This document shows, one piece after another, positions 41,902-56,462 of a DNA stretch of 64,000 nt (position 1 is the stretch's first letter; the number at the start of each line of letters is the position of its first letter). The position numbers and the translations under genes are program-made. Origin of the DNA: Hyphomicrobiales bacterium (lineage in GTDB: Bacteria > Pseudomonadota > Alphaproteobacteria > Rhizobiales > Xanthobacteraceae); NCBI GenBank assembly GCA_016185205.1, contig JACPOA010000017.1, forward strand, positions 1-64,000, in the 5' to 3' direction. A model generated the notes under the pieces. It had not been told where the DNA came from. It did no database searches and was given only the letters and a program-made list of their open reading frames with translations.

Positions 41902-41990
41902 TTTCGATACCGCACCTCTCCGAGTCTGTTCAAAATTGAACGTTTTCAAACTAAGCCACTTCTAAACTATGCCTTGAGTGAACAACGCGT

Positions 41991-42331: not shown

Positions 42332-42617
42332 ACTACGCAATTATACTTGTGCGATTTTGAACAGCACAACGCTGGCTGATGTGGCAAACGTTCACAAGAT
42401 CGATTTGCAAGTGAGTCTTGGCACTTCGTACTTCGCAGGGATGAAGTGCGCAAAGCTCCGCAGTTCTGGATGGCCAACAGTTGAGGTAGCCATTGATGAG
42501 GACCAGCAGAGCAGGGGGTTATTCGCGTTAGCAGTGCATGCGGCGTGCGCCGGAACGGCAGCGGTTGCTAAGCCAATCGTTAGCTTGAGGCGAATTCCCT
42601 TATCAGAGGAGCCGACT

Positions 42618-43147: not shown

Positions 43148-43183
43148 TTACTACGTATGAATATAGATATTACTACGTAAGTA
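43148..43183. promoter_or_regulatory. Paired TTACTACGTA motif, left end of the polysaccharide island
   Basis: TTACTACGTA occurs at 43148-43157 and again at 43170-43179, 22 bases apart, i.e. two helical turns on one face. The second copy extends to TACTACGTAAGTA, which is nearly palindromic. A weaker CAGTACGTAT follows at 43241. The region is strikingly AT-rich against a GC-rich background and precedes the HPt-bcsB-like operon. Related copies occur upstream of the convergent operon at 56245-56380. Confidence 0.55.
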
Positions 43184-43287
43184 CAGTATCATATCTATCT
43201 ATATTAACTATGAAATAAATCAACACTTCAAATTCCAAAGCAGTACGTATCGAATACTTGAACGATTCAGTGGCCGTTAATGCAACG

Positions 43288-43301
43288 GTGCAATTTTGAA
43301 C
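43288..43301 (+). promoter_or_regulatory. GTGCAATTTTGAAC motif upstream of the plus operon
   Basis: This 14-mer lies 22-35 bases upstream of the HPt start. The exact reverse complement is found at 56295-56308, upstream of the opposite operon. Close variants are GTGCGATTTTGAAC at 42349-42362 and GTTCAAAATTGAAC at 41928-41941. Recurrence in four promoter-like places suggests an operator or promoter element; the binding factor is unknown. Confidence 0.5.
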
Positions 43302-43322
43302 GGATCGAGCAGGGGGGAAGCC

Positions 43323-43694
43323 GTGGACGAGTCAAAGTTTGCCGAACGCATTGCGAGGATCCGCGCGCGCTTCGCCGCAAAACTCGCCGACAAAATCCAA
43401 CAAACCGACGCAGCCTTGCCGCACATGGCCGGTGATGGAAGCGACGCGGTCGAAGCGGTGGCTACGGCCTATCGCCAGTTTCACGATGTGTGCGGCATCG
43501 GCGCGACAGTCGGCTTCGAAGCAACCGGTCGGTTAGCGCGCAACCTCGATGCCATTCTGGTCGGACCATTCCGGGATCATCGCGGATTGGCGGCGGACGA
43601 GTTGGTCAAGTTGAAGGAGGCGCTCGAGTCCCTTCGGATCGGCGCGCGAACCGAAATGCAATCAAAAGATTCAAATCGGGAGTTGGCAAATTGA
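43323..43694 (+). CDS. Histidine phosphotransfer (HPt) domain protein
   Basis: A 123-residue, all-helical protein. The phospho-accepting His is probably His54 in YRQFHDVCGIGATVGFEATG, matching the HxLxGxxxxxGF pattern of HPt domains. The start is GTG at 43323 behind an AGGGGGG box; the longer frame from 43296 is not preferred. It heads the polysaccharide operon, and its stop overlaps the TTG start of the bcsB-like gene (TTGA). It probably relays phosphate from the hybrid kinase encoded on the facing operon to one of the receivers here. Confidence 0.8.
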   Translation: MDESKFAERIARIRARFAAKLADKIQQTDAALPHMAGDGSDAVEAVATAYRQFHDVCGIGATVGFEATGRLARNLDAILVGPFRDHRGLAADELVKLKEALESLRIGARTEMQSKDSNRELAN

Positions 43695-45817
43695 TACCTT
43701 TAACTCTACGCGTCTTGTTTGCCGCATCTCTGGCGGCGGTGCTGACATCGTCGACGCACGCCCAGCAGCGGTTTGTACCATATCCGCCCATTCGCATCGA
43801 GCCCGTACGGACCGCTCCGGCGGCACAGACATCCTCAAGAGCGGCGGCGATCACGCCAGATGTTCAAAGTGTCGCGCCCGATGCACCGCTGAAATCACTT
43901 TTGGTTGATGTCCTGCTCGCGGACGTTGGATATTCCAATGGATTCCGGTTTTCCAATTTGGGCGGCCGGCGTGAGATTTACATACCGGTGCCTCAGGGCA
44001 TCGAACTGAACCTTGCTGAGCTCGCGCTCGTGTTCGACGACGTGAGTGCTCACGAGGCGCGCCGCAGCCTGGAAATTCTCGCCAATGATCGTTCGGTCTC
44101 TGCGATCGTCCTTGATGGTAAGAGTACCGGTCGTAAAGTCCGTATAGCGCTCGCAAACGCGGCCGCGCGGGACGGCTTCCTGAAACTCACCTTCCTCTAT
44201 TCTGGTGCGGCGACGCAGGATCGCTGCATCGATGTGCGCTACGTCGGCGACAGCCTGACGATGCGTCCCGAATCCGCACTCGAATTCGAGATCGGCGTAG
44301 CTGGCGCGCCGAACATCACTGCCACCGCGGCTCTCTTGCCGCAGAACGTCGCTATTCTTCTGTCTAATCCCCAGCTTCCGCCAATGGACATTGCCACCGC
44401 GCTTACGCTTGCCCGTTCACTCACGGCAACCGGGAGGCATGTGACGTTCTATCACGGCGTTGAAACGCTGCCGGAACTCGTTCAGCGGGACGACCGGCGC
44501 AGATGGACGCGCGGCTTGATCGTCGTAGGCGCCTTCGATCGGATCGCTGGTCGCCTCGATGCACCGGTCGCGACCTTAGCGAGCGCAGCAGGAGTAACCC
44601 CAATAGACAATACGCTTGCGGCAGCCCGGATCGGCGGGGTCCCGGTTCTGCTTGTCACCGATGTAGCATCGGCGCGCGCGGGGCGTCTACTCGGAAATCC
44701 ATCGCTCGCGGCGCTGCGCGATACGCCGGCCGCTTCAGTCGGGCAGGTTACGCCGCCGAAAGGTCCAACCGATCGGGTGAGCTTCGACGAGCTCGGCGTG
44801 GTACCTGCGCAGGCGGACGTGTTCGGCCGCGCCGATCTTTCGGTTGCAATCGCCAGCCGCACGTTGGCCAGCGGGACGCGGCCGTCGCGCCTCGTGCTCG
44901 ACGTCATGGTTGCCCCCGACGCCGCCGGTGAGAAGGCCGTTGTGAGCGCATTCGTGAACGAACGGCTGCTCGCGAGCACGGTGGCAGCGATTGGCGAACC
45001 GACGCGGCTCGATTTTCCGCTTCCCGACGGGCTCGTCGGCACCGTCGCGAACATTCGAGTTGTGGTTCAGCGCCGTAGCGCCCAAGGCGATTGTCGGTTT
45101 GAGCCGCAAGGCTATCCGGCGGAGATTCTCGGCTCAAGTTCGGTTATTCTCTCAACCGCGGGTTCAGTGGCGGAAGATTTTTCCGATCTCGCGACATTGT
45201 GGGCCAACGGCGTCGAAGTGTTGGTTCCGAAGTCGACCGCCGCGCGACCATTGATGGTGGTCGGCCTGCTGGCCGATGTCTTGAATGCGCTGTCAAAAGA
45301 ATCCGCTCCGATCGTCGTGAAGTATGTCGATGCCGACGTGGCCCCGACTCCAAACGCGCCCTTCATCGCGGTTAGCAACGTGCCGCCCGCTGGCGCGGCG
45401 CAACGCGTGCGCTTCGATCGCGGGCGGGTCGTGGTTGCCGACCGTGCCGGCCGCACGCGCCTCGATATCGGCGGTCTTACCACTGGAGCCGTGGCGCAGA
45501 TCGTGACCTCGGGTACGTATTCCGGATTATGGATCAAGCCGCTGACCAGCGATGGATCGCTGGCTGTTTCACCTGCCGTCCATCTCAATCGCGGCGATGT
45601 CGCGTTCCTGGACAAGACCGGGGTGGCGCTTGCGCTCTCGACCGAGCGCGACACGTTGCTCCGGATTTCCTATCCGGACCAGGGATCGTGGCTGACCTTC
45701 GCCGAGCGGTTCCGCTCCTGGATCGTCGGCGGACTGTGGGCACTCGTCACGATCGTCCTTCTGTTCGTGCTGCAAAGGCTTTACCGCCGCCGCCGCGTTA
45801 CTGTAACGCGCGAATAG
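43691..45817 (+). CDS. Divergent BcsB-like periplasmic polysaccharide synthase subunit
   Basis: A 708-residue protein with signal peptide (LRVLFAASLAAVLTSSTHAQ). The large periplasmic part has BcsB-like features, e.g. GYSNGFRFSNLGGRREIYIP near 70, KLTFLYSGAATQDRCIDVRY near 165 and the later LVLDVMVAPDAAGEKAVVSA. A single membrane helix (WIVGGLWALVTIVLLFVLQR) near the C-terminus is followed by a basic tail, as in BcsB. BcsB guides nascent cellulose through the periplasm and anchors to BcsA. Start is TTG at 43691 with GGGAG eight bases before. Sequence is far from canonical BcsB, so another beta-glycan may be handled. Next gene starts seven bases after its stop. Confidence 0.8.
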   Translation: MIPLTLRVLFAASLAAVLTSSTHAQQRFVPYPPIRIEPVRTAPAAQTSSRAAAITPDVQSVAPDAPLKSLLVDVLLADVGYSNGFRFSNLGGRREIYIPVPQGIELNLAELALVFDDVSAHEARRSLEILANDRSVSAIVLDGKSTGRKVRIALANAAARDGFLKLTFLYSGAATQDRCIDVRYVGDSLTMRPESALEFEIGVAGAPNITATAALLPQNVAILLSNPQLPPMDIATALTLARSLTATGRHVTFYHGVETLPELVQRDDRRRWTRGLIVVGAFDRIAGRLDAPVATLASAAGVTPIDNTLAAARIGGVPVLLVTDVASARAGRLLGNPSLAALRDTPAASVGQVTPPKGPTDRVSFDELGVVPAQADVFGRADLSVAIASRTLASGTRPSRLVLDVMVAPDAAGEKAVVSAFVNERLLASTVAAIGEPTRLDFPLPDGLVGTVANIRVVVQRRSAQGDCRFEPQGYPAEILGSSSVILSTAGSVAEDFSDLATLWANGVEVLVPKSTAARPLMVVGLLADVLNALSKESAPIVVKYVDADVAPTPNAPFIAVSNVPPAGAAQRVRFDRGRVVVADRAGRTRLDIGGLTTGAVAQIVTSGTYSGLWIKPLTSDGSLAVSPAVHLNRGDVAFLDKTGVALALSTERDTLLRISYPDQGSWLTFAERFRSWIVGGLWALVTIVLLFVLQRLYRRRRVTVTRE

Positions 45818-45823
45818 GGCCCC

Positions 45824-47704
45824 ATGCAGCCGCTTTCGCCTTCTGATCGCGCGCTGGGCGACCTTCTGGTCGCCCGCCGCGTCCTCAGTCTCCCACAACT
45901 CGACGAGGTGGTCGGGCTCGCTGAGACTTGGCACGTTCGTCTCGGCGATGCGATCCTCTCACGCAATTGGGCCGACCCGACGGTATATTATCAGGCGGTC
46001 GCGTATCACTACGAACTGCCGTTCGTAGATCTGATTCGCTTCGCGCCCGATCCCACGCTGCTCGCCGCCGCGGAAGTAGAAACCTATACCCGCAAGCTGA
46101 CGATTCCTTGGCGCCGGCGCGACGGGCAGATCGTGATCGCGACAGCCAACCCCGGCCCGGAAGCGGTTCTGTTCGCCAGAAAACGCTGGGGACCGTCGAT
46201 CGCGTTTGTGGTGACTTCGAAGTTCGACATTGTGTGGGCGGTGCAAACCGCCTTTGCCGATGCGCTGTCGCACCGCGCCGTCTACGAGCTCGCCGAGCGA
46301 ACTCCGGAATTGTCGGCGAAAGAGGTCTTTACGCCGGCGCAGGTCATCTTCGGATACGCCCTCCTGACCCTGCTGATGATCGGTCTGGCTCTCGCTCCGA
46401 TCGCAACCCTCGTCACCCTCAATGTGGTGATGAGCTTGTTCTATCTCGGAAACTTCGTGTTCAAGGGAATTCTCGTCTCCGTGGGAGGGGCCCGCTCCGC
46501 CGACAGAGACGAAACCATCGCGATCGCGGCGCGCCTTCTCAGCGACGACGAGTTGCCGGTCTTCACCGTCCTGGTGCCAATGTTCCGCGAGCCCCAGATG
46601 CTGCCGGTGCTCGCTCGCTCGCTGCGACAGCTCGACTATCCATTAGGCAAGCTCGATATCAAGCTCGTGCTCGAGGCTGATGACCACGAGACCATCGAAG
46701 TCGCGAGCAAACTCGGTCTCGAGGGCGTATTCGAGATCATCCGGGTGCCGCCATCGCACCCGCAGACCAAGCCGAAGGCCTGCAACTTCGCGCTGCAGTT
46801 CGCCCGAGGCGAGTTCCTGGTTGTCTATGACGCCGAGGACCGGCCTGAGCCGGACCAGCTTCGTAAAGTGGTAGCGGCGTTCCGACAGTCGTCGCCCAAC
46901 ACGGCCTGCCTGCAGTGCCGCCTCAGCTATTTCAACGCCAGCGAAAATTGGCTGACGCGTATGTTCACGCTCGACTATGCGCTCTGGTTCGACCAGATGC
47001 TGCCGGGCCTGGAGCGGCTCAACGTCCCAATTCCGCTCGGAGGCACGTCGAATCACTTCAAGATCGACGTTTTACGCGAGTTGCATGCATGGGACCCCTT
47101 CAACGTTACCGAGGACGCGGACCTGGGCGTGCGTCTGACTCAGAAGGGTTATCGCGTCGGCGTCGTCGACTCGACTACTTTCGAGGAAGCGAGTTGCCGC
47201 GCCGGAAACTGGATCCGTCAGCGTTCGCGTTGGATGAAGGGCTACATGCAGACCTTCCTGGTCCACACCAGGCGGCCGCTGCACCTGCTGGGCACGATCG
47301 GACCGATCGGATTCCTCGGGTTCGTGTTCTTCATCGGCGGGACCGTAGTTTCCGGCCTCTTCAACCCGGTGTTCTGGCTGCTCTATCTAGTGTGGCTGAT
47401 TGCGGCGACGAGCGGCTTTGATCCGGTATTTCCGCAATCCCTTCTGTTCCTCAGCCTCTTCAATCTTCTTGCTGGCAATGGTGCCTTCATCTTTCTCCAC
47501 ATGCTGGCGCCGATCCGGCGCGGATGGCTCAGCCTCATTCCCTATAGCCTGACCGCGTTCGGCTACTGGGTGATGATCTCGATCGCAGCCTACAAGGGCC
47601 TTTGGCAGCTTCTGAGAAATCCATTCTACTGGGAGAAGACGCAACACGGCGTCTCCAAGCACCTGGTCCACGAGCTGGCGCCGGTTCACGAGACTTCGCC
47701 GTGA
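45824..47704 (+). CDS. GT2 polysaccharide synthase with N-terminal MshEN-like domain
   Basis: A 626-residue enzyme. Residues ~5-70 form an MshEN-like (GspE N-terminal) region: RALGDLLVARRVLSLPQLDE and VRLGDAILSRNWADPTVYYQ, then ELPFVDL. Two spans follow near 165-215. The GT2 domain (~240-480) has YDAEDRPEPDQL (DxD), the acceptor-site TEDADLG and the processivity motif QRSRWMKGY. More spans follow near 485-600. No PilZ domain is present, so c-di-GMP control, if any, would run through the MshEN-like part. E. coli NfrB is a known GT2 enzyme carrying an MshEN domain, at its other end. Likely synthesises and extrudes a beta-glycan with the BcsB-like partner. Confidence 0.87.
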   Translation: MQPLSPSDRALGDLLVARRVLSLPQLDEVVGLAETWHVRLGDAILSRNWADPTVYYQAVAYHYELPFVDLIRFAPDPTLLAAAEVETYTRKLTIPWRRRDGQIVIATANPGPEAVLFARKRWGPSIAFVVTSKFDIVWAVQTAFADALSHRAVYELAERTPELSAKEVFTPAQVIFGYALLTLLMIGLALAPIATLVTLNVVMSLFYLGNFVFKGILVSVGGARSADRDETIAIAARLLSDDELPVFTVLVPMFREPQMLPVLARSLRQLDYPLGKLDIKLVLEADDHETIEVASKLGLEGVFEIIRVPPSHPQTKPKACNFALQFARGEFLVVYDAEDRPEPDQLRKVVAAFRQSSPNTACLQCRLSYFNASENWLTRMFTLDYALWFDQMLPGLERLNVPIPLGGTSNHFKIDVLRELHAWDPFNVTEDADLGVRLTQKGYRVGVVDSTTFEEASCRAGNWIRQRSRWMKGYMQTFLVHTRRPLHLLGTIGPIGFLGFVFFIGGTVVSGLFNPVFWLLYLVWLIAATSGFDPVFPQSLLFLSLFNLLAGNGAFIFLHMLAPIRRGWLSLIPYSLTAFGYWVMISIAAYKGLWQLLRNPFYWEKTQHGVSKHLVHELAPVHETSP

Positions 47705-49167
47705 GCCGCATCATTCCTGTGGCGTTCGTCATATTGGTCACATTCGTCGCAGTCCTCGTGCTCTCGAGGACCGCAACGACGGCGGGCCTCGTTTCCGATG
47801 ATGCGGTGACGCTGTGGGCTAACGCGATTACAGCCGGCGACGGCCAAATGCCGCTGGGGCGCATCGTCGCCGCCTATCCGACAATACCCTTCCTGGCCAC
47901 CACGCTGCTGGAATTCATTACGCCGCTCGGCACCCCGACGCCCGTTCTTCTGACTGCCGGTACACTCGCCGTTCTCGCCGGCGTGTGGTTCATTTCATTT
48001 CAACGCGCGGGCCTGCCGCTGATCGCCGCAGCGATGGCGGCTCTTCTTCTCGGCCTGCATCCGGCGATACTGCGCGCGGCGATCGCCGGGCCCGCGGAGA
48101 TGATTCTTGCCGCCTTCCTGTTTCTACTGGGCTGCGCGTTCTTTGATCTGCGCGCGCGCAGCGCCGCGCCCGAGGTGATGGCGGTTGCTCTCGCGCTGCT
48201 CGGTCTTGCTTTCTCGCATCCGATAGGCGCAGCGCTTACCTGCGCGGCAATTCCGCTTCTGATATTCGCCGTGCGCCCCGAAATGCTTGCGAGTTCGGTT
48301 GTCAACTTGGTGATGGCGCTCATCTTCCCCACCGCCTTCTGCGTGGGTGCATTTGCCTACATGTCGTGGGTATTTCCGGGAAGCGGCTGGAGCTTTCTCG
48401 TCGCACCGGCCGAAGGTCTCGCCGCCTGGGGCGTCGGCTTTGCGCAACTATTCGGTCGCGGACTGACTGGCTCACCCGCAATCGACGCCGGAATCGCGGT
48501 CGTCATCGCGCTCTTGCTAGCGGCCCCCGTCGTCCCGTTCGCAATCACCTGGGTCTATCGGCGCCGGCCCCTGGTCGCGCCCCCTTTGGTGATCGTCGCG
48601 ATGACGGTTGCGGCAGCCTGGATCGCGGTCACCACCGGCCTGTTCGGCAATCCCGCGGCGCTCGCGGTCATGCCCCCGATCCTCGCCGCCATCATCATCA
48701 TCCGCATACCGGTCGTGCGCGAGCGGCTGGCGCTCGTTCTCCCGCTGCTCGTTCTCGGATGGCTCGGCGGTGTAGTCGGGCTCGCGATCGTCGACCCGCG
48801 CGGTGCCACGAACGTAGCCGTTGCGCTTGAGGGCCACGGCGTCGACCAGGAACGGCTCGCCGCGATCGACCTCGGGAACGCGACGGTCGGGCGGGACGGC
48901 ATCTTGGTCGATACTTTCAACGCCCCGGCGATCGTACTTGGCCGCGGGCGCGCACGCGGGCTGCTCTCGCCATCCGACGAGGCGTTCACGCTCGGCGTGC
49001 TGTTCTCCCGTATCGACACGCCATACGTGGCCGTCCCGGATCCGCAAATCGGCATCGGCGCGCAGGATCGGCTGAACAAGGCATTCCCGCTGCTCTACCG
49101 GCGCGGGGCCCCGGGCTACCGCCTCATCTACGAGAAGTCGAATTGGAAATTGTTCGCACGTAACTGA
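47701..49167 (+). CDS. Polytopic membrane protein of the polysaccharide operon
   Basis: A 488-residue protein with about ten membrane spans, then a soluble C-terminal part from ~370. The start GTG at 47701 overlaps the synthase stop (GTGA). The architecture (TDDAVTLW-like acidic loop after the first helix, then many spans, then a periplasmic tail such as AIDLGNATVGRDGILVDTFN) recalls GT-C type membrane glycosyltransferases, in which an acidic motif follows the first span; here VSDDAVTLW near 33. That resemblance is tentative. It may modify the polymer or complete the translocon. Confidence 0.7.
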   Translation: MSRIIPVAFVILVTFVAVLVLSRTATTAGLVSDDAVTLWANAITAGDGQMPLGRIVAAYPTIPFLATTLLEFITPLGTPTPVLLTAGTLAVLAGVWFISFQRAGLPLIAAAMAALLLGLHPAILRAAIAGPAEMILAAFLFLLGCAFFDLRARSAAPEVMAVALALLGLAFSHPIGAALTCAAIPLLIFAVRPEMLASSVVNLVMALIFPTAFCVGAFAYMSWVFPGSGWSFLVAPAEGLAAWGVGFAQLFGRGLTGSPAIDAGIAVVIALLLAAPVVPFAITWVYRRRPLVAPPLVIVAMTVAAAWIAVTTGLFGNPAALAVMPPILAAIIIIRIPVVRERLALVLPLLVLGWLGGVVGLAIVDPRGATNVAVALEGHGVDQERLAAIDLGNATVGRDGILVDTFNAPAIVLGRGRARGLLSPSDEAFTLGVLFSRIDTPYVAVPDPQIGIGAQDRLNKAFPLLYRRGAPGYRLIYEKSNWKLFARN

Positions 49168-49228
49168 CGTGCGGCGTGTGGGAAACCGGCGCCGGCGTTC
49201 GCACCATTGAGGATCACGGAGTTTCTAC

Positions 49229-50197
49229 ATGCGTATTCTGATCGTAGACGATTCCGAGGACGGACGTGACGTCGCCGAAGCGATGCTTCTCGCCGCCGGC
49301 TATGAGAATGTCAGCACCGCTGGTTCGGCCGCGGAGGCATACCGTTTCCTGGGGATTGGGGTGGCGGCCGCGCAAGAGCCCTCGGCGGTCGATCTCGTGC
49401 TGCTCGATATCGTAATGCCTGAGATCGACGGCATCGAAGCTTGCGCGCGCATTCGCAATGACCCGCGTCATTCCGATGTCCCCATCATCATGGTGACGTC
49501 GCTTGGCGACATGGACAGCTTGGCCAATGCGTTCGTGGCGGGAGCTACGGACTACATCACGAAACCGCTGAACCGTGTAGAACTCCTGGCGCGCGTTCGC
49601 TCCGCGCTTAAGCTCAAATCCGAGCTCGACCGGCGCCAAGCGCGCGAACGTGAGCTAACGCACTTCATGTCGACCTGGGGCGAACGTCGCGCCTCGCACT
49701 GGATCGACCAAGCCACGGGCCTGTTCCTCGGCGAAGTGGCGGAGGCTTATCTGACCGCGGCCGCCAATTTACCCTTCGACGGCGACACCTCGGTTATCGC
49801 GCTCGCGATTGACCGTCTCGATTCCTATCGATCCACGCAAGGCGATGCGATGGCGGCAAGCATTGTGGCGAAGGTCGCGCGCGCGGTGCGGGCGACCGCG
49901 GCTACCGTCGGCGTCGTTGCGGCCGCCTACCGCGACGGGATGATTGTCCTGGTCGTTCCGGAGCTGCAGTCCAAGCCGGCCCTGGCTCTGGGGGAAGCAC
50001 TGCGCGCCGCAGTCTCCAGGCTAGCCATCTCCAATCCGGAGTCGATCGGCGCCAACCACGTCACCGCAAGCGTCGTCGTGGTGACTGGGCGGGTCAAACG
50101 CTGGATCGATCGCGTCCATCTTCTGACCCGGGCGATGTCGACTGTCCCGCGAATCGCGGCAGCCGGCGGCAACCGTGTCGTGCCTGAATATGACTAG
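49229..50197 (+). CDS. Response regulator: REC plus degenerate GGDEF-like domain
   Basis: A 322-residue protein. The receiver (1-125) is complete: DD at 7-8, phospho-acceptor Asp60 in DLVLLDIVMPEIDG, VTSLGD and the Lys in DYITKPLNRVELL. The second half (~150-320) follows the GGDEF fold pattern (WIDQATGLFLGEVAEAYL for DxxTGLxNR; VIALAIDRLDSYRSTQGDAM for the metal/substrate helix). However AAYRDGMIVLVVP stands where RYGGDEFxxxLP is expected, so diguanylate cyclase activity is excluded. It may bind nucleotide or act as a phosphorylation-controlled partner of the synthase. Confidence 0.82.
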   Translation: MRILIVDDSEDGRDVAEAMLLAAGYENVSTAGSAAEAYRFLGIGVAAAQEPSAVDLVLLDIVMPEIDGIEACARIRNDPRHSDVPIIMVTSLGDMDSLANAFVAGATDYITKPLNRVELLARVRSALKLKSELDRRQARERELTHFMSTWGERRASHWIDQATGLFLGEVAEAYLTAAANLPFDGDTSVIALAIDRLDSYRSTQGDAMAASIVAKVARAVRATAATVGVVAAAYRDGMIVLVVPELQSKPALALGEALRAAVSRLAISNPESIGANHVTASVVVVTGRVKRWIDRVHLLTRAMSTVPRIAAAGGNRVVPEYD

Positions 50198-50247
50198 CGT
50201 ACTTTTCGATGCTTCGCGTAACCGCGTTGTGAGTGGAGTCGTGCGTT

Positions 50248-51048
50248 ATGAGCAAGTGTATGCGCCTTGGGCGCGTTCTTGTAGTTGGTCTGATGGTGTC
50301 CCCGACCGCGGCGTTCGCCGGTGCATGGACCCTCGACGCCGGACAGGGCGTCGCGGTGGTGAGCGGATCGGCGAGCCAATCCGACAAGGCATTCGATGGA
50401 AACGGCAAACTGCGATCGATCCCGCGCTACAGCAAGGACGAGCTGCGGGCCCTGATTGAATACGGTGCTACCGATTGGTTCACCGTCATGCTGGCGCCGT
50501 CACTTCAGCACGTCGCCATCGGCAGGCCGTTCGATGCGCAACGCACCGGCTTGGGCTACACCGACATCGGCGCAAGGATGCGGGTATGGAAGAACGATTC
50601 ATGGGTTCTGTCGGCGCAGACGACCTTGCGCGTGCCCGGCACTTTCGAGAAGTCCAACGTCGCTGCGATCGGCTACACAGGTATCGAGATCGATGTCCGC
50701 GGACTGTTAGGCTACAGCTTCGCAGTCGGCGCATGGCCGGCTTTCGTCGACGTTCAAGTTGCGCAGCGGTTACGCTTCGGGGGACCGCCGGACGAATTCC
50801 GTACCGACGTTACGTTCGGACTTCGGCCGCACGATCGGTGGCTCTTTCTCATGCAGTCGTTCAACGTGATCTCGGAAGGCGCGGGGAGTTGGGGTTATCC
50901 GAGCTATGCCTACTACAAGCTCCAGCTCAGTGCGGTCTATGCATTGACCCCCGCCTTGTCATTGCAGGTCGGCGGCTACACGACCTACTGGGGACGCAAT
51001 GCCCTCCAGGAAAACGGCATGGTCCTTGGCGCCTGGTACAAATTCTGA
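50248..51048 (+). CDS. Outer-membrane beta-barrel protein
   Basis: A 266-residue protein with a signal peptide ending at AAFAGAWTLD. The mature chain alternates hydrophobic and polar residues in strands with aromatic girdles, has no helices, and ends in WYKF, with a C-terminal aromatic residue as required for BAM-mediated insertion. It probably forms the outer-membrane pore for the polymer in place of BcsC, or a surface anchor. The start ATG at 50248 has GGAG nine bases upstream. Its stop touches that of the convergent glycosidase. Confidence 0.75.
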   Translation: MSKCMRLGRVLVVGLMVSPTAAFAGAWTLDAGQGVAVVSGSASQSDKAFDGNGKLRSIPRYSKDELRALIEYGATDWFTVMLAPSLQHVAIGRPFDAQRTGLGYTDIGARMRVWKNDSWVLSAQTTLRVPGTFEKSNVAAIGYTGIEIDVRGLLGYSFAVGAWPAFVDVQVAQRLRFGGPPDEFRTDVTFGLRPHDRWLFLMQSFNVISEGAGSWGYPSYAYYKLQLSAVYALTPALSLQVGGYTTYWGRNALQENGMVLGAWYKF

Positions 51049-52089
51049 TCACGGCCGGCGGCAGCCCGGCGTCCAGGCGCACAACAGAACCGCTTCCGCC
51101 GGCTTCCCCTGCACGGTGAAGTCGGTGTCTTTGAGACCGCCCGCCGCGGGCTCCGTGAACCAGCGCCAGATTAGGACTCCGTGGATTGCCGGCCGGTCGA
51201 GAACGGCAAGCCAGTCGGCAAGCACTTCGGCTTGTAGCTGAGGATCGGCGGATGTCGTGCGCTCTTCGGCGCTTTCCCACGGCTTCGCGGCCGCACCCTT
51301 CGCGGAACGCAGCCCGATTTCTCCCACCATGACCGGCTTGCCAGTACGTTTCGACAGCGCGTCGAGGCGATCGGCAACGGCCCGCATCATGGCGAGTCGT
51401 CCGATACGGTCGTGGTCGGCCCCGAGCGGGGGATAAAGCGACACGCCGATCACGTCGAGCTGGGGCCAGAACGGAACGGCTTCGGCCTCGTCAACATTGT
51501 GCGCAACGTAGAGCAGGGTGCGCGGAAACGCCGACCGCGCCGCGGCGATCAGTTCGCTCCATTCCGGTCGTTGGGTCGTCTTGGCGAGTTCGGTGCCGAT
51601 CACGAGGCCATCGGCGCCTTCTTCGGCGGCGATTTGGGCGATACGTTCAAGCTCGCGGCGATATCGGGAGAACCAGATATGCCAGGATTGTTCGGAGTCT
51701 GGCTCGACCGCGCCGGCCCAACTTTCCGGCACCCAGACGTGAGGCTTTACGAAGACGACGAATCCCACTTTTCGCGCCTGCCGGATCGCCTGGCGTAGCG
51801 CATCATCGGGCATGTCATTGCCGCCACGAAGGTCGGGACTTGAAGGGCTCGCTTGCCAGAGGAAGGGAATAATGGCGACCGCGGTCGCGCCGAGGCGCTT
51901 GGCGGCAACCAACGCGCGCTCGGCCGATACGCTGCCGAAAGGATGATCCGGGGTGGCAATGACGTTGAAGCCATCGAGGCGCTGGCCGCGCGCGAGGCCA
52001 TTTACGGCAATCAACACGTTCAACGCCAGTAGCGCTATAGACGATATGTGCCAGGACCGAAAACGCGATCCATCCGTATCCTTACGCAT
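51049..52089 (-). CDS. GH113-like TIM-barrel glycosidase
   Basis: A 346-residue protein with an N-terminal signal or anchor (SSIALLALNVLIAVNGLARG). The barrel has FVVFVKPHVWVPESWAG near 120, the likely acid/base Glu in GADGLVIGTELAKTTQRPEW near 178, and the likely nucleophile in KPVMVGEIGLRSAKG near 265, matching the glycoside hydrolase 113-like layout. Characterised GH113 enzymes are beta-mannanases. In this operon it probably trims or releases the polymer, the role BcsZ plays for cellulose. The start at 52089 overlaps the stop of the upstream REC-HPt gene; a start at 52128 is the alternative. Confidence 0.78.
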   Translation of the reverse strand: MRKDTDGSRFRSWHISSIALLALNVLIAVNGLARGQRLDGFNVIATPDHPFGSVSAERALVAAKRLGATAVAIIPFLWQASPSSPDLRGGNDMPDDALRQAIRQARKVGFVVFVKPHVWVPESWAGAVEPDSEQSWHIWFSRYRRELERIAQIAAEEGADGLVIGTELAKTTQRPEWSELIAAARSAFPRTLLYVAHNVDEAEAVPFWPQLDVIGVSLYPPLGADHDRIGRLAMMRAVADRLDALSKRTGKPVMVGEIGLRSAKGAAAKPWESAEERTTSADPQLQAEVLADWLAVLDRPAIHGVLIWRWFTEPAAGGLKDTDFTVQGKPAEAVLLCAWTPGCRRP

Positions 52090-52783
52090 CGATGACGGAA
52101 TGCATTCGGTGGCTACGGCTCGTCTCAACGCAGATCAGCAGGTGGTCAAGAGCGTGCGCAATATCTTCGAGGGAGCCCGAACCATTAAGCTTGATCGCCT
52201 CCTCGAGTGAGGCCGCGGCGTCGCTGATTTCAGAAAAGCCGAAAATGCCACCGGCACCGGCCAGACCATGGGCGATATCTCCGATTCTCGCCAGAGCGAC
52301 CGCTGCAGCCTTGCTGTCTTTGAGCGCGGATCGATGCTCCATCAAAGCGGCAGCATCGTCGTCGACGCGCTTAAGAAAAACGCTTTGCAACGCGCCAAAC
52401 CGACCGTCCGCCGGCTGTATGTAAGCGCGCACCGAGGCCGCGAGAGTCATCGGGTCGAACGGTTTTGGTATCACGCCGACGGCACCGAGCGAGCGAAAAA
52501 GATCGAGCTCGCGGGTCTGGGCACGGGCCGTCATAAAGACGACGGGAATGCTGGCCGTCTTTGCATTTTCCCGCAGGCGCGCGAGCGTGGCCGGTCCGTC
52601 CATCCCGGGCATCATGACGTCCAGGAGGATGATGTCCGGCGGCCAATCCATGGCAACCGCGATGGCCTCGTGGCCCGAGTCGCAGCCTCGCGTCTCGAAC
52701 TGTGGATCTAGACCGAGCGAGATATCCACGACTTCGCGGATGTCAGGCTCGTCGTCGACATGAAGGACGCGAAGTGCAGTCAT
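52082..52783 (-). CDS. Response regulator with C-terminal HPt domain
   Basis: A 233-residue two-domain protein. The receiver (1-120) has DDE at 10-12, Asp55 in IILLDVMMPGMDG and the Lys in VIPKPFDP. The C-terminal HPt domain (~135-225) has the phospho-His in RIGDIAHGLAGAGGIFGFSE. It can therefore take phosphate on Asp and hold or pass it on His, a relay module. Its start overlaps the kinase stop (ATGA), and its stop overlaps the glycosidase start. The likely partner is the hybrid kinase just upstream. Confidence 0.9.
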   Translation of the reverse strand: MTALRVLHVDDEPDIREVVDISLGLDPQFETRGCDSGHEAIAVAMDWPPDIILLDVMMPGMDGPATLARLRENAKTASIPVVFMTARAQTRELDLFRSLGAVGVIPKPFDPMTLAASVRAYIQPADGRFGALQSVFLKRVDDDAAALMEHRSALKDSKAAAVALARIGDIAHGLAGAGGIFGFSEISDAAASLEEAIKLNGSGSLEDIAHALDHLLICVETSRSHRMHSVIDA

Positions 52784-55071
52784 GCGACCTCCTTGGATCT
52801 GTGCGCGCGCGCATCCGCCACTCGGGCGCGGATCGTTGCCGCGAGACCCTCGAGCGACGCCTGCGACTTGCTCAACGCGACTTGAACCTGCTCGTCACAT
52901 GCCGAACCCGCGCCCCGAACGGAGAAGATGATGACCGGGATCACGTTGCCCAGGCTGTCCCGGAGTTCCGGCAGCAGATCCAGACCGGACCCCGTGCCAA
53001 GCGCAATATCGAGCACCGCGAGGTCGATGTGATCGGTCGCAAGCACGCGGCGTGCCCCCTCGATGGAATCCACCGAAACCACGTCGGCCGTAGCGCGGAG
53101 CGCTTCGGCCACGATGGCGAGCACGTCGTGATCGTCGTCGACATGCAGAATACACGGACGTTTATTTGTTTTTAGAGCGATCGAATCCTTGAGGACCCGG
53201 ACTAGGCGCTCGAAGTCGACCGGCTTGCTGAGCCAACCCAATACATTGAGCCTGGATGATCTCACATCGTCGCGCCCCCGGCTGGGTTCGCCGGAAACCA
53301 CGATAATCGGCGTGCCGTGATATTGCGTCTGCGCCCGCAGGCGGAGAATGAGGTCAATACCATTGCCGTCCGGAAGCTGCAGGTCGACCAGGAAAGCCGC
53401 GTAGCCAGCCGCGTCGGCGCGCGTGAGCGCGGCGGTCATCGTAAAAGCGATGTCCGCGGCAAATCCCGCATGCCGCAGCCAGTCCCGCATGGCGACCGCG
53501 GTGTCGTGATCGTCCTCACAAAGCAGGATGCGTGGGGCGCTCACCTCGGATTTCAGATCAATTTCCCAGCCGGCCGCATCGTTCCTGGCAGGCAACTCGA
53601 CCTGAAAGATCGTGCCGCCGCCAGGCGCGTCAACGAAGCTTACCTCGCCGCCCAATCGTTCGATGATTTGCTTGACGATGCTGAGCCCGAGGCCGGTTCC
53701 TCCCTTCTGCCGGGAGTTTGTGGCGTCGGCCTGCGCGAATTTCTCGAAAATGTGCGGCTTGAAGTCGGCCGGAATACCGGGACCGTGGTCACGCACCGAT
53801 ATGCGGACAACTTCGCCATTGTTCTCCACCGCGACCACCACTTCTCCGTCCGCCGGAGAGAACTTGATTGCATTCGAAAGCAGGTTGGTGATGACCTGGG
53901 CAAGCCGGTCGGGGTCGGCGTTTACTTTACCGTCTGACGATGCGTCGTCGAGCCGAACACGCACGCCGTAACCCTCGGCGTATCCACGATTGTCCTCGAT
54001 CGCCTGCTCGACCAGCGGACGAACGTCGACCCAACTCATATTGAACGCGACGCGGCCGGACTCGAGCTTCTCGGTGTCGAGAATATCGTTGATGAGGCGG
54101 ACCAGCCGCTGGCTGTTCTTGTGCGCGATCGCCAGCAGACGCGCGGCCGATTCGGGCAGTTTGCCGGCCCACTGTCCCGCCAACAGGCCGAGCGAGCCGG
54201 CAATCGACGTCAGTGGCGTGCGCAGCTCGTGGCTCACAGTCGAAACGAACTCGTCTTTCAAACGCTCCATGCGTTTGCGCACGCTGATCTCGCGGATCGC
54301 TGCCGTCACCAGAAATCCTTCATGGCTTTCCAGCGGGCTCAACATGATCTCGATCGGAAACTCGCTGCCATCCTTCCGCCGACCAATGAGCTCAATCCCG
54401 CTGCCGATCTGCTGTGCCAGCGCATCAGCCGCGGATCGAAGACCGTCAGCAACCAAACGTTCCGTGAAGCCCTGCGGAATGATGTTCTTGACCATCTGCC
54501 CGACGAGTTCATCGCGGCGGTATCCGAACTGCTTTTCCGCCTGAGCATTCAGCAGAACGATCTCTCCACCCTGGTTCACCACTACCATCGCGTCCGGTGC
54601 CGCCTCCAGCAGTGCGCGGTACCGCCCTTCCATCAGCGCCAGCTGCTTTTCCGCAGCTTTGCGTACGCTGACATCGACGATAACGCTCAGGACTAGGAGA
54701 CCATCGCCGGTGCGCATCGGAGTAAGGCCTACTTCGATGGCAAATTCGCTTCCGTCCTTGCGCAATCCAAAAAGATTGGGGCTGGCTTCGACGCGGCGAC
54801 TCTCCGGCCGACGATTGAACGCTTCGCGGTGATGGGTATGCTGACTGCGCAGGCGCTCGGGCACGAGTATCTCAGGCGTCTGGCCGATCAGTTCCTCACG
54901 GAGATAGCCGAATTGTCGCTCAATCTCGGCATTGACCATCACCATCTTGCCGGAGCCATCGATCATCACCATGCCAATCGGACAAGCTTCGACTACTAAG
55001 CGAAACTTCTCCTCCGCAAGGCTTCGATCGTCAGCACCAGCCAAGTCGGGGCGAGTGAGATCGGCCGTCAA
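52780..55071 (-). CDS. Hybrid sensor kinase: PAS, PAS, HisKA, HATPase, REC, REC
   Basis: A 763-residue cytosolic kinase without membrane spans. Two PAS domains (~20-140, ~145-265) show DGSGKMVMVNAEIERQFGY and NQGGEIVLLNAQAEKQFGYR. HisKA has VSHELRTPLTSIAG near 280; HATPase has NLLSNAIKFSP, DHGPGIP and GGTGLGLSIVK. Two receivers follow: the first with EDD, VDLQLPDGNGIDL and SKPVDF, the second with VDDD, VLDIALGTGSGLDLL and LSKSQ. A final helix completes the chain. The TTG start at 55071 overlaps the stop of the LuxR gene (TTGA). Ligands of the PAS domains are unknown; no haem-binding His/Arg pattern was recognised. Confidence 0.93.
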   Translation of the reverse strand: MTADLTRPDLAGADDRSLAEEKFRLVVEACPIGMVMIDGSGKMVMVNAEIERQFGYLREELIGQTPEILVPERLRSQHTHHREAFNRRPESRRVEASPNLFGLRKDGSEFAIEVGLTPMRTGDGLLVLSVIVDVSVRKAAEKQLALMEGRYRALLEAAPDAMVVVNQGGEIVLLNAQAEKQFGYRRDELVGQMVKNIIPQGFTERLVADGLRSAADALAQQIGSGIELIGRRKDGSEFPIEIMLSPLESHEGFLVTAAIREISVRKRMERLKDEFVSTVSHELRTPLTSIAGSLGLLAGQWAGKLPESAARLLAIAHKNSQRLVRLINDILDTEKLESGRVAFNMSWVDVRPLVEQAIEDNRGYAEGYGVRVRLDDASSDGKVNADPDRLAQVITNLLSNAIKFSPADGEVVVAVENNGEVVRISVRDHGPGIPADFKPHIFEKFAQADATNSRQKGGTGLGLSIVKQIIERLGGEVSFVDAPGGGTIFQVELPARNDAAGWEIDLKSEVSAPRILLCEDDHDTAVAMRDWLRHAGFAADIAFTMTAALTRADAAGYAAFLVDLQLPDGNGIDLILRLRAQTQYHGTPIIVVSGEPSRGRDDVRSSRLNVLGWLSKPVDFERLVRVLKDSIALKTNKRPCILHVDDDHDVLAIVAEALRATADVVSVDSIEGARRVLATDHIDLAVLDIALGTGSGLDLLPELRDSLGNVIPVIIFSVRGAGSACDEQVQVALSKSQASLEGLAATIRARVADARAHRSKEVA

Positions 55072-55697
55072 CGGATTTCACTCAGTGCCATGCGAACCAG
55101 ATCGGCTGCGTTCTTGGCCCCCAGCTTTCCCATGATATGGGCGCGATGGACCTCGAACGTCCGCGTGCTGATCCTCATCTGGCGACCGCCTTCCTTGTTG
55201 GAGGCGCCGCCGGTGATCAGGGCAAGCGCCTCACGCTCGCGCGGTGTTAAGTGGTGTCGAACGGTATGAGACGGAACCAGCGATGGGCAGCCGTTGCCAT
55301 TCGTGTTGCTGCCCTGTGTCCAAGACTCGATCGCCTCGCGGCCGCGCGCGACCGCGGTTTCGGGGTCCGTCGGCGCTTCGAAGGTGTGGCCCAACCGCTT
55401 CATGATGTCGCAAACCCGCTCCGTTTCGCGCAGCGCCATTTCCACTATGTCTTGCATCGAATTTGGCATCGTTTCCGCGCCGGTAAAATGCTCGCCCCGC
55501 TCCTTGATTTCGTGCAGATAGAGCAGCAACGCGGTCAACGGCTCGTTGAGTTGATGCGCCATCGCGGCGCCTACTTCGTCGACCGCCCAAATTCGCGCCC
55601 GAGACACGAGATCGGTCTGGAGCCGATTGAAGTTTTGCGCGGCAAGATTATGCGCAGTGCGAGGCGCGATGTTGGAACGGGAATTGGTCTGCGTCAT
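55068..55697 (-). CDS. LuxR-type regulator with histidine-kinase-like dimerisation helix
   Basis: A 209-residue protein. Residues ~30-110 resemble the DHp helices of a FixL-type kinase, with AMAHQLNEPLTALLLYLHEI and a His at position 48 in the H-box place. No ATPase domain follows. Residues ~145-209 form a LuxR/FixJ helix-turn-helix (LTPREREALALITGGASNKE, RTFEVHRAHIMGKLGAKN). It could be a transcription factor whose DHp-like helices dimerise with, or accept phosphate from, the hybrid kinase next door. Overlaps both neighbours by four bases (ATGA, TTGA). Confidence 0.85.
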   Translation of the reverse strand: MTQTNSRSNIAPRTAHNLAAQNFNRLQTDLVSRARIWAVDEVGAAMAHQLNEPLTALLLYLHEIKERGEHFTGAETMPNSMQDIVEMALRETERVCDIMKRLGHTFEAPTDPETAVARGREAIESWTQGSNTNGNGCPSLVPSHTVRHHLTPREREALALITGGASNKEGGRQMRISTRTFEVHRAHIMGKLGAKNAADLVRMALSEIR

Positions 55698-56131
55698 CGT
55701 GTCGCTCCTTGATCGGCTTTTCCGGTTCCCGCAGGGCGATCAATGGAAAGTGCTGGGTCGAGACACGAGTTGATGGCCGCCATCAATTGCTGGGGCGCGA
55801 ACGGCTTGCGCAGACAAAAGGTTGCGCCGAGCTTGGCCGCCATCCCGAGGAAATCCGGAGCCGAGGCCATAGAATTGCGAAACTTGAAGCCGGACATGGC
55901 GACGATAGGCACCGTCGGCGCTCGTTCGCGAATGCCTTTGATGGTTTCGAGGCCATCCAGTCCTGGCATGAAGATATCGACTATCACCACGTCGAACTTG
56001 GATGATTCGAAAGCCTGAACGCCGGCCTGGGCATCTTGCGAAACCACCGAGTCGCAATCTTGGCGAGCCAGCATCATCTGAATTGCCGCGCCGACGGAAC
56101 GATCGTCGTCGATGACAAGAACGCGCGTCAT
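55694..56131 (-). CDS. Stand-alone response regulator (receiver only)
   Basis: A 145-residue protein starting MTRVLVIDDDRSVGAAIQMM at 56131; a longer frame from 56197 adds unrelated residues. The receiver is complete, with the acidic triad, Asp52 in VVIVDIFMPGLDG, the Ser of AMSGF and the Lys in CLRKPFAPQQL. No output domain is present, only a ~25-residue polar tail. It is the first gene of the regulatory operon, ending in ATGA with the LuxR gene. It probably acts as a phosphate sink or by protein contact. Confidence 0.88.
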   Translation of the reverse strand: MTRVLVIDDDRSVGAAIQMMLARQDCDSVVSQDAQAGVQAFESSKFDVVIVDIFMPGLDGLETIKGIRERAPTVPIVAMSGFKFRNSMASAPDFLGMAAKLGATFCLRKPFAPQQLMAAINSCLDPALSIDRPAGTGKADQGATR

Positions 56132-56462
56132 GGCAGGCTTATCCCGCCGTGGAAAATCGGTTCCACGGGGACAGCGCATGTCTTCGTCAAAATTCAATCT
56201 CTCAGGGGTCGGAATATCGGCACCTGTTCTCAGTGATTAAACCCATTACTACGTGAGATTGTATTCAGTATAATCTTCCACCGACAAATACTCTGTTCAA
56301 AATTGCACATTTTGAAAAAATTATGTGGAATCGTACGAAATACTTACGTATTGGCTGGTATTCGAATAGGTATTACGCAGTATTTACTGGAGGTATATTT
56401 GTAGATACTAATAGTGTTAGCCGCGCTGCGAGCGCTCATTTGCGCGAACGGGACGTCACGCG
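56132..56462. promoter_or_regulatory. AT-rich control region, right end of the polysaccharide island
   Basis: The region upstream of the minus operon holds ATTACTACGTGAG near 56246-56258, TACTTACGTA at 56341-56350 (the reverse complement of TACGTAAGTA seen at 43174-43183) and TATTACGCAGTA near 56371. It also has GTTCAAAATTGCAC at 56295-56308. The latter is part of a perfect inverted repeat, TTCAAAAT-TGCAC-ATTTTGAA (56296-56316), a likely dimer-binding operator. The base composition contrasts strongly with neighbouring genes, matching the left control region at 43.1-43.3 kb. Confidence 0.6.

Follow-up and report, generated by a model that had tools for sequence, protein, structure and literature searches.

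A probable Xag/Sfz-type exopolysaccharide locus linked to phosphorelay genes in a Hyphomicrobiales bacterium

What is made, and under whose control, by two convergent operons within a 64,000-nucleotide stretch of DNA (the window) from a Hyphomicrobiales bacterium (assembly GCA_016185205.1, contig JACPOA010000017.1)? Their eleven frames, all present and open as originally predicted from the sequence, occupy positions 43296-56197 and meet stop to stop at 51048/51049. The original prediction saw in them one phosphorelay-controlled exopolysaccharide system with cellulose-like machinery and no named counterpart. Our analysis places the machinery, with a probability of about 0.8, among the Xag/Sfz-type exopolysaccharide synthase-exporters; computation supports the homology, gene order, retained active-site residues and folds, as well as the loss of a GGDEF signature. 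The secretion part corresponds to xagABCD together with bcsB, a core shared with sfz1-4/sfb1-4, so that, as far as the machinery goes, the glycosyltransferase family 2 (GT2) synthase and the BcsB-like protein do belong to a named system, contrary to the prediction. For the relay part, the open-access literature searched held no named counterpart.

Relatives were collected with a profile of four aligned GT2 sequences in a scan of named genomes, and the best 80 of at least 571 were kept (loci are labelled L0xx or L154, genomes G0xx-G2xx); the window is part of the residue and motif row counts, in which L014/L092 and L019/L036 each stand for a single organism. The GT2 residues D287, E338-D339, TED and QxxRW are kept in 84/84 rows. 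The window GT2 is 51% identical to that of Ferriphaselus sp. R-1 (L081), which stands in a row of a CxxCH frame, BcsB, GT2, membrane protein and glycoside hydrolase (GH), and the glycosidases of the two loci match at E 7e-80. We take the CxxCH frame for the published cyc2. Among 39 other genomes of the Pseudoxanthomonas family, two carry a close XagB (74% and 77% identical), each within a four-gene run of barrel, GT2, membrane protein and GH that fits xagABCD in order and number. The window matches both runs with its GT2 (E 8e-232 and 4e-222), its GH (E 4e-76 and 8.5e-75) and its barrel, the last against the first gene of each run (E 1.9e-16 and 4.6e-11). XagA would then be the barrel, the names A to D being assigned by gene order rather than from a named Xanthomonas record. 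A GT2 tree places the xag clade (support 0.94) as sister to the alphaproteobacterial clade (0.90), with 0.997 for the node that unites them; the outgroup is a very distant paralogue on contig C43 of the window's genome, and the tree includes no BcsA. The window's genome has a second GT2 (G000:C43:34077-35465; L021:10084-11466), which shares 43% identity with the synthase across residues 145-613 and whose aligned part gives no MshEN match.

The remaining components were examined by family models and structure comparison. The BcsB model PF03170 matches 38/42 aligned family members at E ≤0.1 (best 1.5e-19) and gives no match for the window's own BcsB-like protein; it finds nothing in the window's own genome, though it misses the window's own gene too, and a search of the BcsB profile against PDB sequences returned no match. 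The AlphaFold model of the polytopic membrane protein has a predicted local distance difference test (pLDDT) score of 95, and, judged by their titles, 18 of the 19 PDB entries that it matches best are GT-C enzymes or oligosaccharyltransferase (OST) complexes, among them DPY19, PglB, AftA, AftB, OST, ArnT and AglB, the nineteenth being a translocon entry. Template modelling (TM) scores of these matches lie at 0.35-0.47 with probabilities of at least 0.96, yet only two E-values fall below 0.001. Asp410 is kept in 54/55 rows and Asp462 in 53/55. We propose that the XagC/Sfz3 counterpart models as a GT-C glycosyltransferase fold, which would be new for a family whose fold is called unknown in the published description of Sfz3 (PMC8250860). 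The barrel (pLDDT 93) has as its best PDB match the COG4313 channel 4rl8 (TM 0.73-0.77), followed by other barrels such as EstA and FapF, and PF13557 matches 7/40 of its relatives at E ≤0.1. That the XagA-like barrel models as a COG4313-type channel is likewise a new proposal. In the glycosidase, two Glu residues that we take to be the catalytic pair are kept in 31/31 rows. GH113 is named after beta-mannanases. In Xanthomonas campestris pv. campestris, the mannanase ManA has been implicated in the dispersal of a biofilm that depends on xag and xanthan to form (PMC3528676). Mannan as the product is only a lead, and the literature titles listed for glucomannan in this connection offered nothing direct.

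Across the 80 loci, BcsB was found in 66, the membrane protein in 65, the receiver-GGDEF (REC-GGDEF) protein in 52, the barrel in 41, GH113 in 30, the kinase in 27 and REC-HPt in 24, all lower bounds because contigs end within loci and single-sequence searches miss distant forms. The most frequent gene sets are BcsB, membrane protein, REC-GGDEF, barrel and GH (18 loci) and BcsB, membrane protein and REC-GGDEF (18 loci). Since the gene order recurs across many genomes, a chance origin of the locus is excluded. Nine beta-/gammaproteobacterial-type loci (L068, L072-L074, L079-L082 and L084) combine BcsB, GT2, membrane protein and GH, and three of them (L068, L074 and L084) give a barrel match. 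Cultured carriers of the cluster, none of them known to be harmful, include Amorphus coralli (L092), Niveispirillum irakense (L075) and Bradyrhizobium sp. SSBR45G (L023). The manganese oxidiser Aurantimonas manganoxydans SI85-9A1 (L032) likewise has a related core cluster, GH113 included, whose GT2 is 66% identical.

The relay genes were assigned domains that largely agree between the prediction and Pfam/NCBIfam, as do those of the MshEN-GT2, REC-GGDEF and GH113 proteins. The two HPt and five receiver domains counted across both operons are confirmed by Pfam, though one HPt scores below its cut-off (Table 1). The His of HPt taken as phospho-acceptor is kept in 15/15 aligned rows and the receiver Asp of the REC-GGDEF proteins in 57/57. 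The GG[DE]EF signature is absent in all 57 of these proteins, so the window's copy, too, lacks the mark of an active diguanylate cyclase. A kinase or REC-HPt lies near 27/52 loci with REC-GGDEF versus 2/28 without, kinship being ignored in this count. The hybrid kinase is apparently soluble. The DHp-LuxR protein has the look of a kinase dimerisation domain joined to a response-regulator helix-turn-helix (HTH), with neither ATPase nor receiver. Among 296 other genomes of the order, at least 8 contain a full-length match, and those among the matches listed all belong to a single genus within the same family. In other genomes the two halves are matched by frames of their own, which frequently share a contig at a distance of about 1 kb (for example in G180, G282 and G021).

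The genes and flanking features are listed in Table 1. Overlap between neighbours, described in the prediction as almost universal, is found at six of nine same-strand junctions (43691, 47602, 52082, 52780, 55068 and 55694), that at 47602 hinging on an uncertain start codon; at the other three the genes stand 6, 61 and 35 nt apart, which makes the wording a little strong.

Table 1. Features of the locus, in window coordinates.
Feature	Position	Strand	Basis and remarks
Four TA[AC]GTA-type sites, candidate regulator binding region upstream of operon 1	43152..43249	.	sequence pattern
HPt protein	43296..43694	+	start uncertain, internal GTG at 43322 possible; PF01627 21.4 bits, under cut-off 24.6
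BcsB-like periplasmic protein, Sfz1/CDS9 counterpart	43691..45817	+	Ferriphaselus counterpart E 1e-51
MshEN-GT2 polysaccharide synthase, XagB/Sfz2 counterpart	45824..47704	+	PF05157, PF13632
Polytopic membrane protein, probable GT-C fold, XagC/Sfz3 counterpart	47602..49167	+	AlphaFold model; real start probably downstream of 47602
Receiver + degenerate GGDEF protein	49229..50197	+	PF00072, PF00990
Outer-membrane beta-barrel, putative XagA-like channel	50233..51048	+	structure model and matches to xag-like runs
GH113-family glycosidase, XagD/Sfz4 counterpart	51049..52128	-	PF22612 E 6e-36
Receiver-HPt protein	52082..52783	-	PF00072, PF01627
Hybrid kinase PAS-PAS-HisKA-HATPase-REC-REC	52780..55071	-	Pfam
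DHp-like domain fused to FixJ/LuxR-type HTH	55068..55697	-	PF00512 25.2 bits (just under 26.9), PF00196 (GerE)
Stand-alone receiver	55694..56197	-	PF00072 E 1.2e-21
26-bp repeat, left copy, outside operons	41925..41950	.	88% identical direct repeat with 56292-56317
26-bp repeat, right copy	56292..56317	.	core also inverted at 43288-43304 (94% complementary)

The predicted likeness to cellulose secretion stands, with a BcsB-like protein and a BcsA-like GT2, and with BcsABCZ the locus shares a BcsB-like partner, a processive GT2, an exit barrel and a glycosidase. These features speak for a variant bcs system. Against it, the window GT2 reaches only 41.2 bits on the BcsA/CelA equivalog TIGR03030 against 699.1 required, Pfam detects no PilZ among the cluster proteins, and the glycosidase belongs to GH113. 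The barrel, moreover, gives no tetratricopeptide repeat (TPR) match and models as a short COG4313-type channel, and the GT2 tree, built without BcsA, joins the synthase to xag. On the BcsA score, the missing PilZ and the glycosidase family we reject a cellulose system as very improbable. We consider it equally far-fetched that two unrelated operons face each other by coincidence. More distant relatives, in which the kinase genes lie upstream, downstream or are not seen, would fit such an accident, but GH113 represents the core component XagD, and in the window its frame runs into the relay genes. Linkage also holds in most of the eight near relatives whose flanking sequence is long enough (L022, L023, L024, L026, L027, L029, L030 and L154; L025 and L028 end too early to judge): the GH113 gene is convergent with and adjoins the barrel gene in 7/8 (exception L030), and kinase and REC-HPt lie within the locus in 7/8 (exception L027; on the opposite side in L023). 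This bears out the prediction of one exopolysaccharide system.

Several observations nevertheless tell against an Xag/Sfz-type exporter coupled to a relay. The membrane protein matches its Ferriphaselus counterpart only weakly (E 4e-11) and finds an XagC-type match in one Pseudoxanthomonas-family locus (E 7e-10) and none in the other. The barrel has no match in the Ferriphaselus locus, nor BcsB in the two 12-kb Pseudoxanthomonas-family loci, so the full gene set is not constant. An active GT-C enzyme is expected to carry an acidic residue in its first periplasmic loop; because this residue varies across the membrane-protein relatives, active GT-C chemistry in the XagC counterpart is at most a possibility. 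On the relay side, DHp-LuxR was found in only 4/8 near relatives (L022, L023, L024 and L027), and in 25/52 loci with REC-GGDEF neither a kinase nor REC-HPt passed the search thresholds, partly owing to contig ends. A competing explanation, which keeps the same machinery and differs in its control, is that of an ordinary synthase activated by cyclic di-GMP (c-di-GMP) like NfrB or BcsA, in which MshEN still binds and the relay controls transcription only. Published work on MshE describes two 24-residue c-di-GMP motifs and implicates Arg and Gln positions in binding (PMC5013675). The MshEN domain of the window synthase scores 40.7 bits on PF05157, over the cut-off of 23.1, and still has Leu-Gly in motif I and Arg-Leu-Gly in motif II, but both binding positions of motif I are Ala, both turn glycines are replaced, and neither site matches a relaxed form of the motif.

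Over all 84 rows, the relaxed motif is present at both sites in 8, at one in 8 and at none in 68. Of 56 REC-GGDEF rows, those with two motifs (L045, L050, L051, L058 and L059) and one with a single motif (L075) form one early-branching clade, in which five rows are named Niveispirillum or Azospirillum and one is a Hyphomicrobiales plasmid; 48 of the other 50 have no motif and the remaining two, which represent a single organism, have it at one site, with L030, L070 and L076 among the 50 cut N-terminally and not fully judgeable. The loss extends beyond the carriers of REC-GGDEF, however, because 20/28 rows without this protein also lack the relaxed motif, many of the 28 being Acetobacteraceae or Rhodospirillales with a divergent N-terminus. 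The relaxed motif is also a harsh test, since the Ferriphaselus protein (L081) matches it at neither site but reaches 62.1 bits on NF053729, a curated model of the c-di-GMP motif with a cut-off of 38 bits. Of ten proteins picked by hand, this model passes seven relatives at 48.7-62.1 bits (L045, L058, L059, L068, L074, L081 and L084; four of the xag clade and three early-branching alphaproteobacterial ones) and leaves the window (21.5), L022 (27.6) and L039 (34.2) below the cut-off. We put the chances of ordinary c-di-GMP activation somewhat short of even.

In the Xag/Sfz-type reading, the MshEN-GT2 protein, as XagB counterpart, would polymerise and extrude a beta-linked glycan with the BcsB-like protein as its periplasmic partner; the GT-C-fold XagC counterpart may be its partner in the membrane or another glycosyltransferase, the XagA-like barrel may form the outer-membrane exit, and the GH113 protein may trim or release the chain. 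The alphaproteobacterial block would bring its own phosphorelay. We infer a flow of phosphate from the PAS-PAS hybrid kinase to its receivers, on to REC-HPt and HPt, and from there to two targets, the stand-alone receiver and REC-pseudoGGDEF. The latter probably acts through binding, not c-di-GMP synthesis, and DHp-LuxR would set transcription. For the wiring as drawn we would take roughly even odds. The phosphorelay perhaps replaces c-di-GMP control, a change that we infer; in a more specific scenario, which we regard as unlikely, a c-di-GMP-gated Xag synthase gained a receiver-pseudoGGDEF protein in Alphaproteobacteria, its MshEN site decayed, and the phosphorylated receiver docking on MshEN came to gate synthesis. 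At this locus, a possible takeover by a phosphorelay of the control that c-di-GMP exerts on a polysaccharide synthase can be put to the test.

Transcriptional control may involve the TA[AC]GTA-type sites before operon 1, which form the sole such cluster (at least three in 300 bp) within the 64-kb window. Clusters also precede operon 1 in L022, L026, L027 and L029, L154 has two sites directly before it, and the region upstream of operon 1 in L024 has none. Ahead of operon 1, the window and six relatives together have 17 sites versus 1.9 expected (0/500 shuffles), in regions and with a pattern picked after the sequences were viewed and with L023 and L028 left out; across their whole loci, these two have two sites and none, respectively. 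Operon 2 of the window has two sites versus 0.4 expected (24/500 shuffles).

The suspicion that the block was acquired has gained ground. A GT2 orthologue (E ≤1e-180) occurs in 9/197 other genomes of the family (one partial, two with one internal stop) and in 0/10 other genomes of the genus. DNA similarity to the best relative, L022, sets in at 43329, the start of operon 1, and breaks off within the kinase gene at 55017; no similarity lies beyond the block, and DHp-LuxR is matched there at the protein level only. At the left border lie a DDE transposase fragment (PF01609, 41149-41448) and a serine-recombinase fragment (PF00239, 41623-41949; E 0.004, under the cut-off). Because the block is absent from genus mates, its DNA similarity is bounded, and these fragments and the 26-bp repeat mark its borders, horizontal acquisition is likely, loss in sister species being the alternative. 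A motif around GTGCAATTTTGAAC recurs in both orientations at 41925-41950, 42348-42363, 43287-43302 and 56292-56317, bracketing the block, and its copies are possible ends of a mobile element. TGYGCRATTTTGAACA has two exact matches in the 4.4-Mb genome, at 42348 and within 56292-56317, and twelve with two mismatches, two at the locus and ten elsewhere. The copy at 43287 may be native, because L022 reads a partly similar stretch there. We also considered the border repeat as a part of the system; this is not supported, as L022-L030 and L154 have no copy at 0 or 1 mismatch, and the four two-mismatch matches in L024, L027, L029 and L030 lie away from operon starts. Elsewhere in the window, a fluoride riboswitch lies at 612-675 on the minus strand (58 bits versus 34 required).

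Among named systems, the Ferriphaselus R-1 cluster is described as bcsB-xagBCD (Kato 2015, PMC4643136) and as sfb1-4, related to sfz1-6 (Koeksoy 2021, PMC8250860). The sfz/sfb genes, which encode a BcsB-like protein, a T2SSE_N-GT2, the sfz3 protein and a glycosyl hydrolase, are candidate twisted-stalk genes of Fe(II)-oxidisers (PMC8250860, PMC4643136). Homologues of sfz1-sfz4 stand together in the window locus, as judged against Ferriphaselus R-1 only. The synteny differs: sfz4 directly follows sfz3 on the same strand, whereas in the window two genes intervene and the GH gene is on the opposite strand, and the window adds the barrel and the relay. The genes sfz5 and sfz6 are reported, in the description of sfz, as absent in Betaproteobacteria (PMC8250860). 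We do not claim an iron-stalk function; one Cyc2 query, in a search without positive control, found no match in the window's genome. The locus ties a widespread, hardly studied alphaproteobacterial cluster to xag and Fe-stalk clusters and brings with it folds proposed for XagC/Sfz3 and the XagA-like protein.

Deletion of xagA or xagB is reported to lower the raised biofilm of an rpfG mutant (PMC3609779). All four components of Xanthomonas xagABCD have homologues in the window (barrel, MshEN-GT2, membrane protein and GH), which differs in adding BcsB, HPt, REC-pseudoGGDEF and the kinase operon, in gene order, and in having GH on the opposite strand. The NfrBA-YbcH system of Escherichia coli likewise pairs a synthase of GT2 and MshEN with an outer-membrane pore (PMC8669469), but MshEN of NfrB is C-terminal and binds c-di-GMP (PMC8669469), whereas that of the window is N-terminal with eroded contacts, and NfrA has the TPR repeats for which the window barrel shows no match. 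The window GT2 scores 31.4 bits on the NfrB equivalog NF008411, which requires 1170. Set beside these systems, the machinery is of a known kind, and what appears new is the relay wiring together with decayed c-di-GMP parts.

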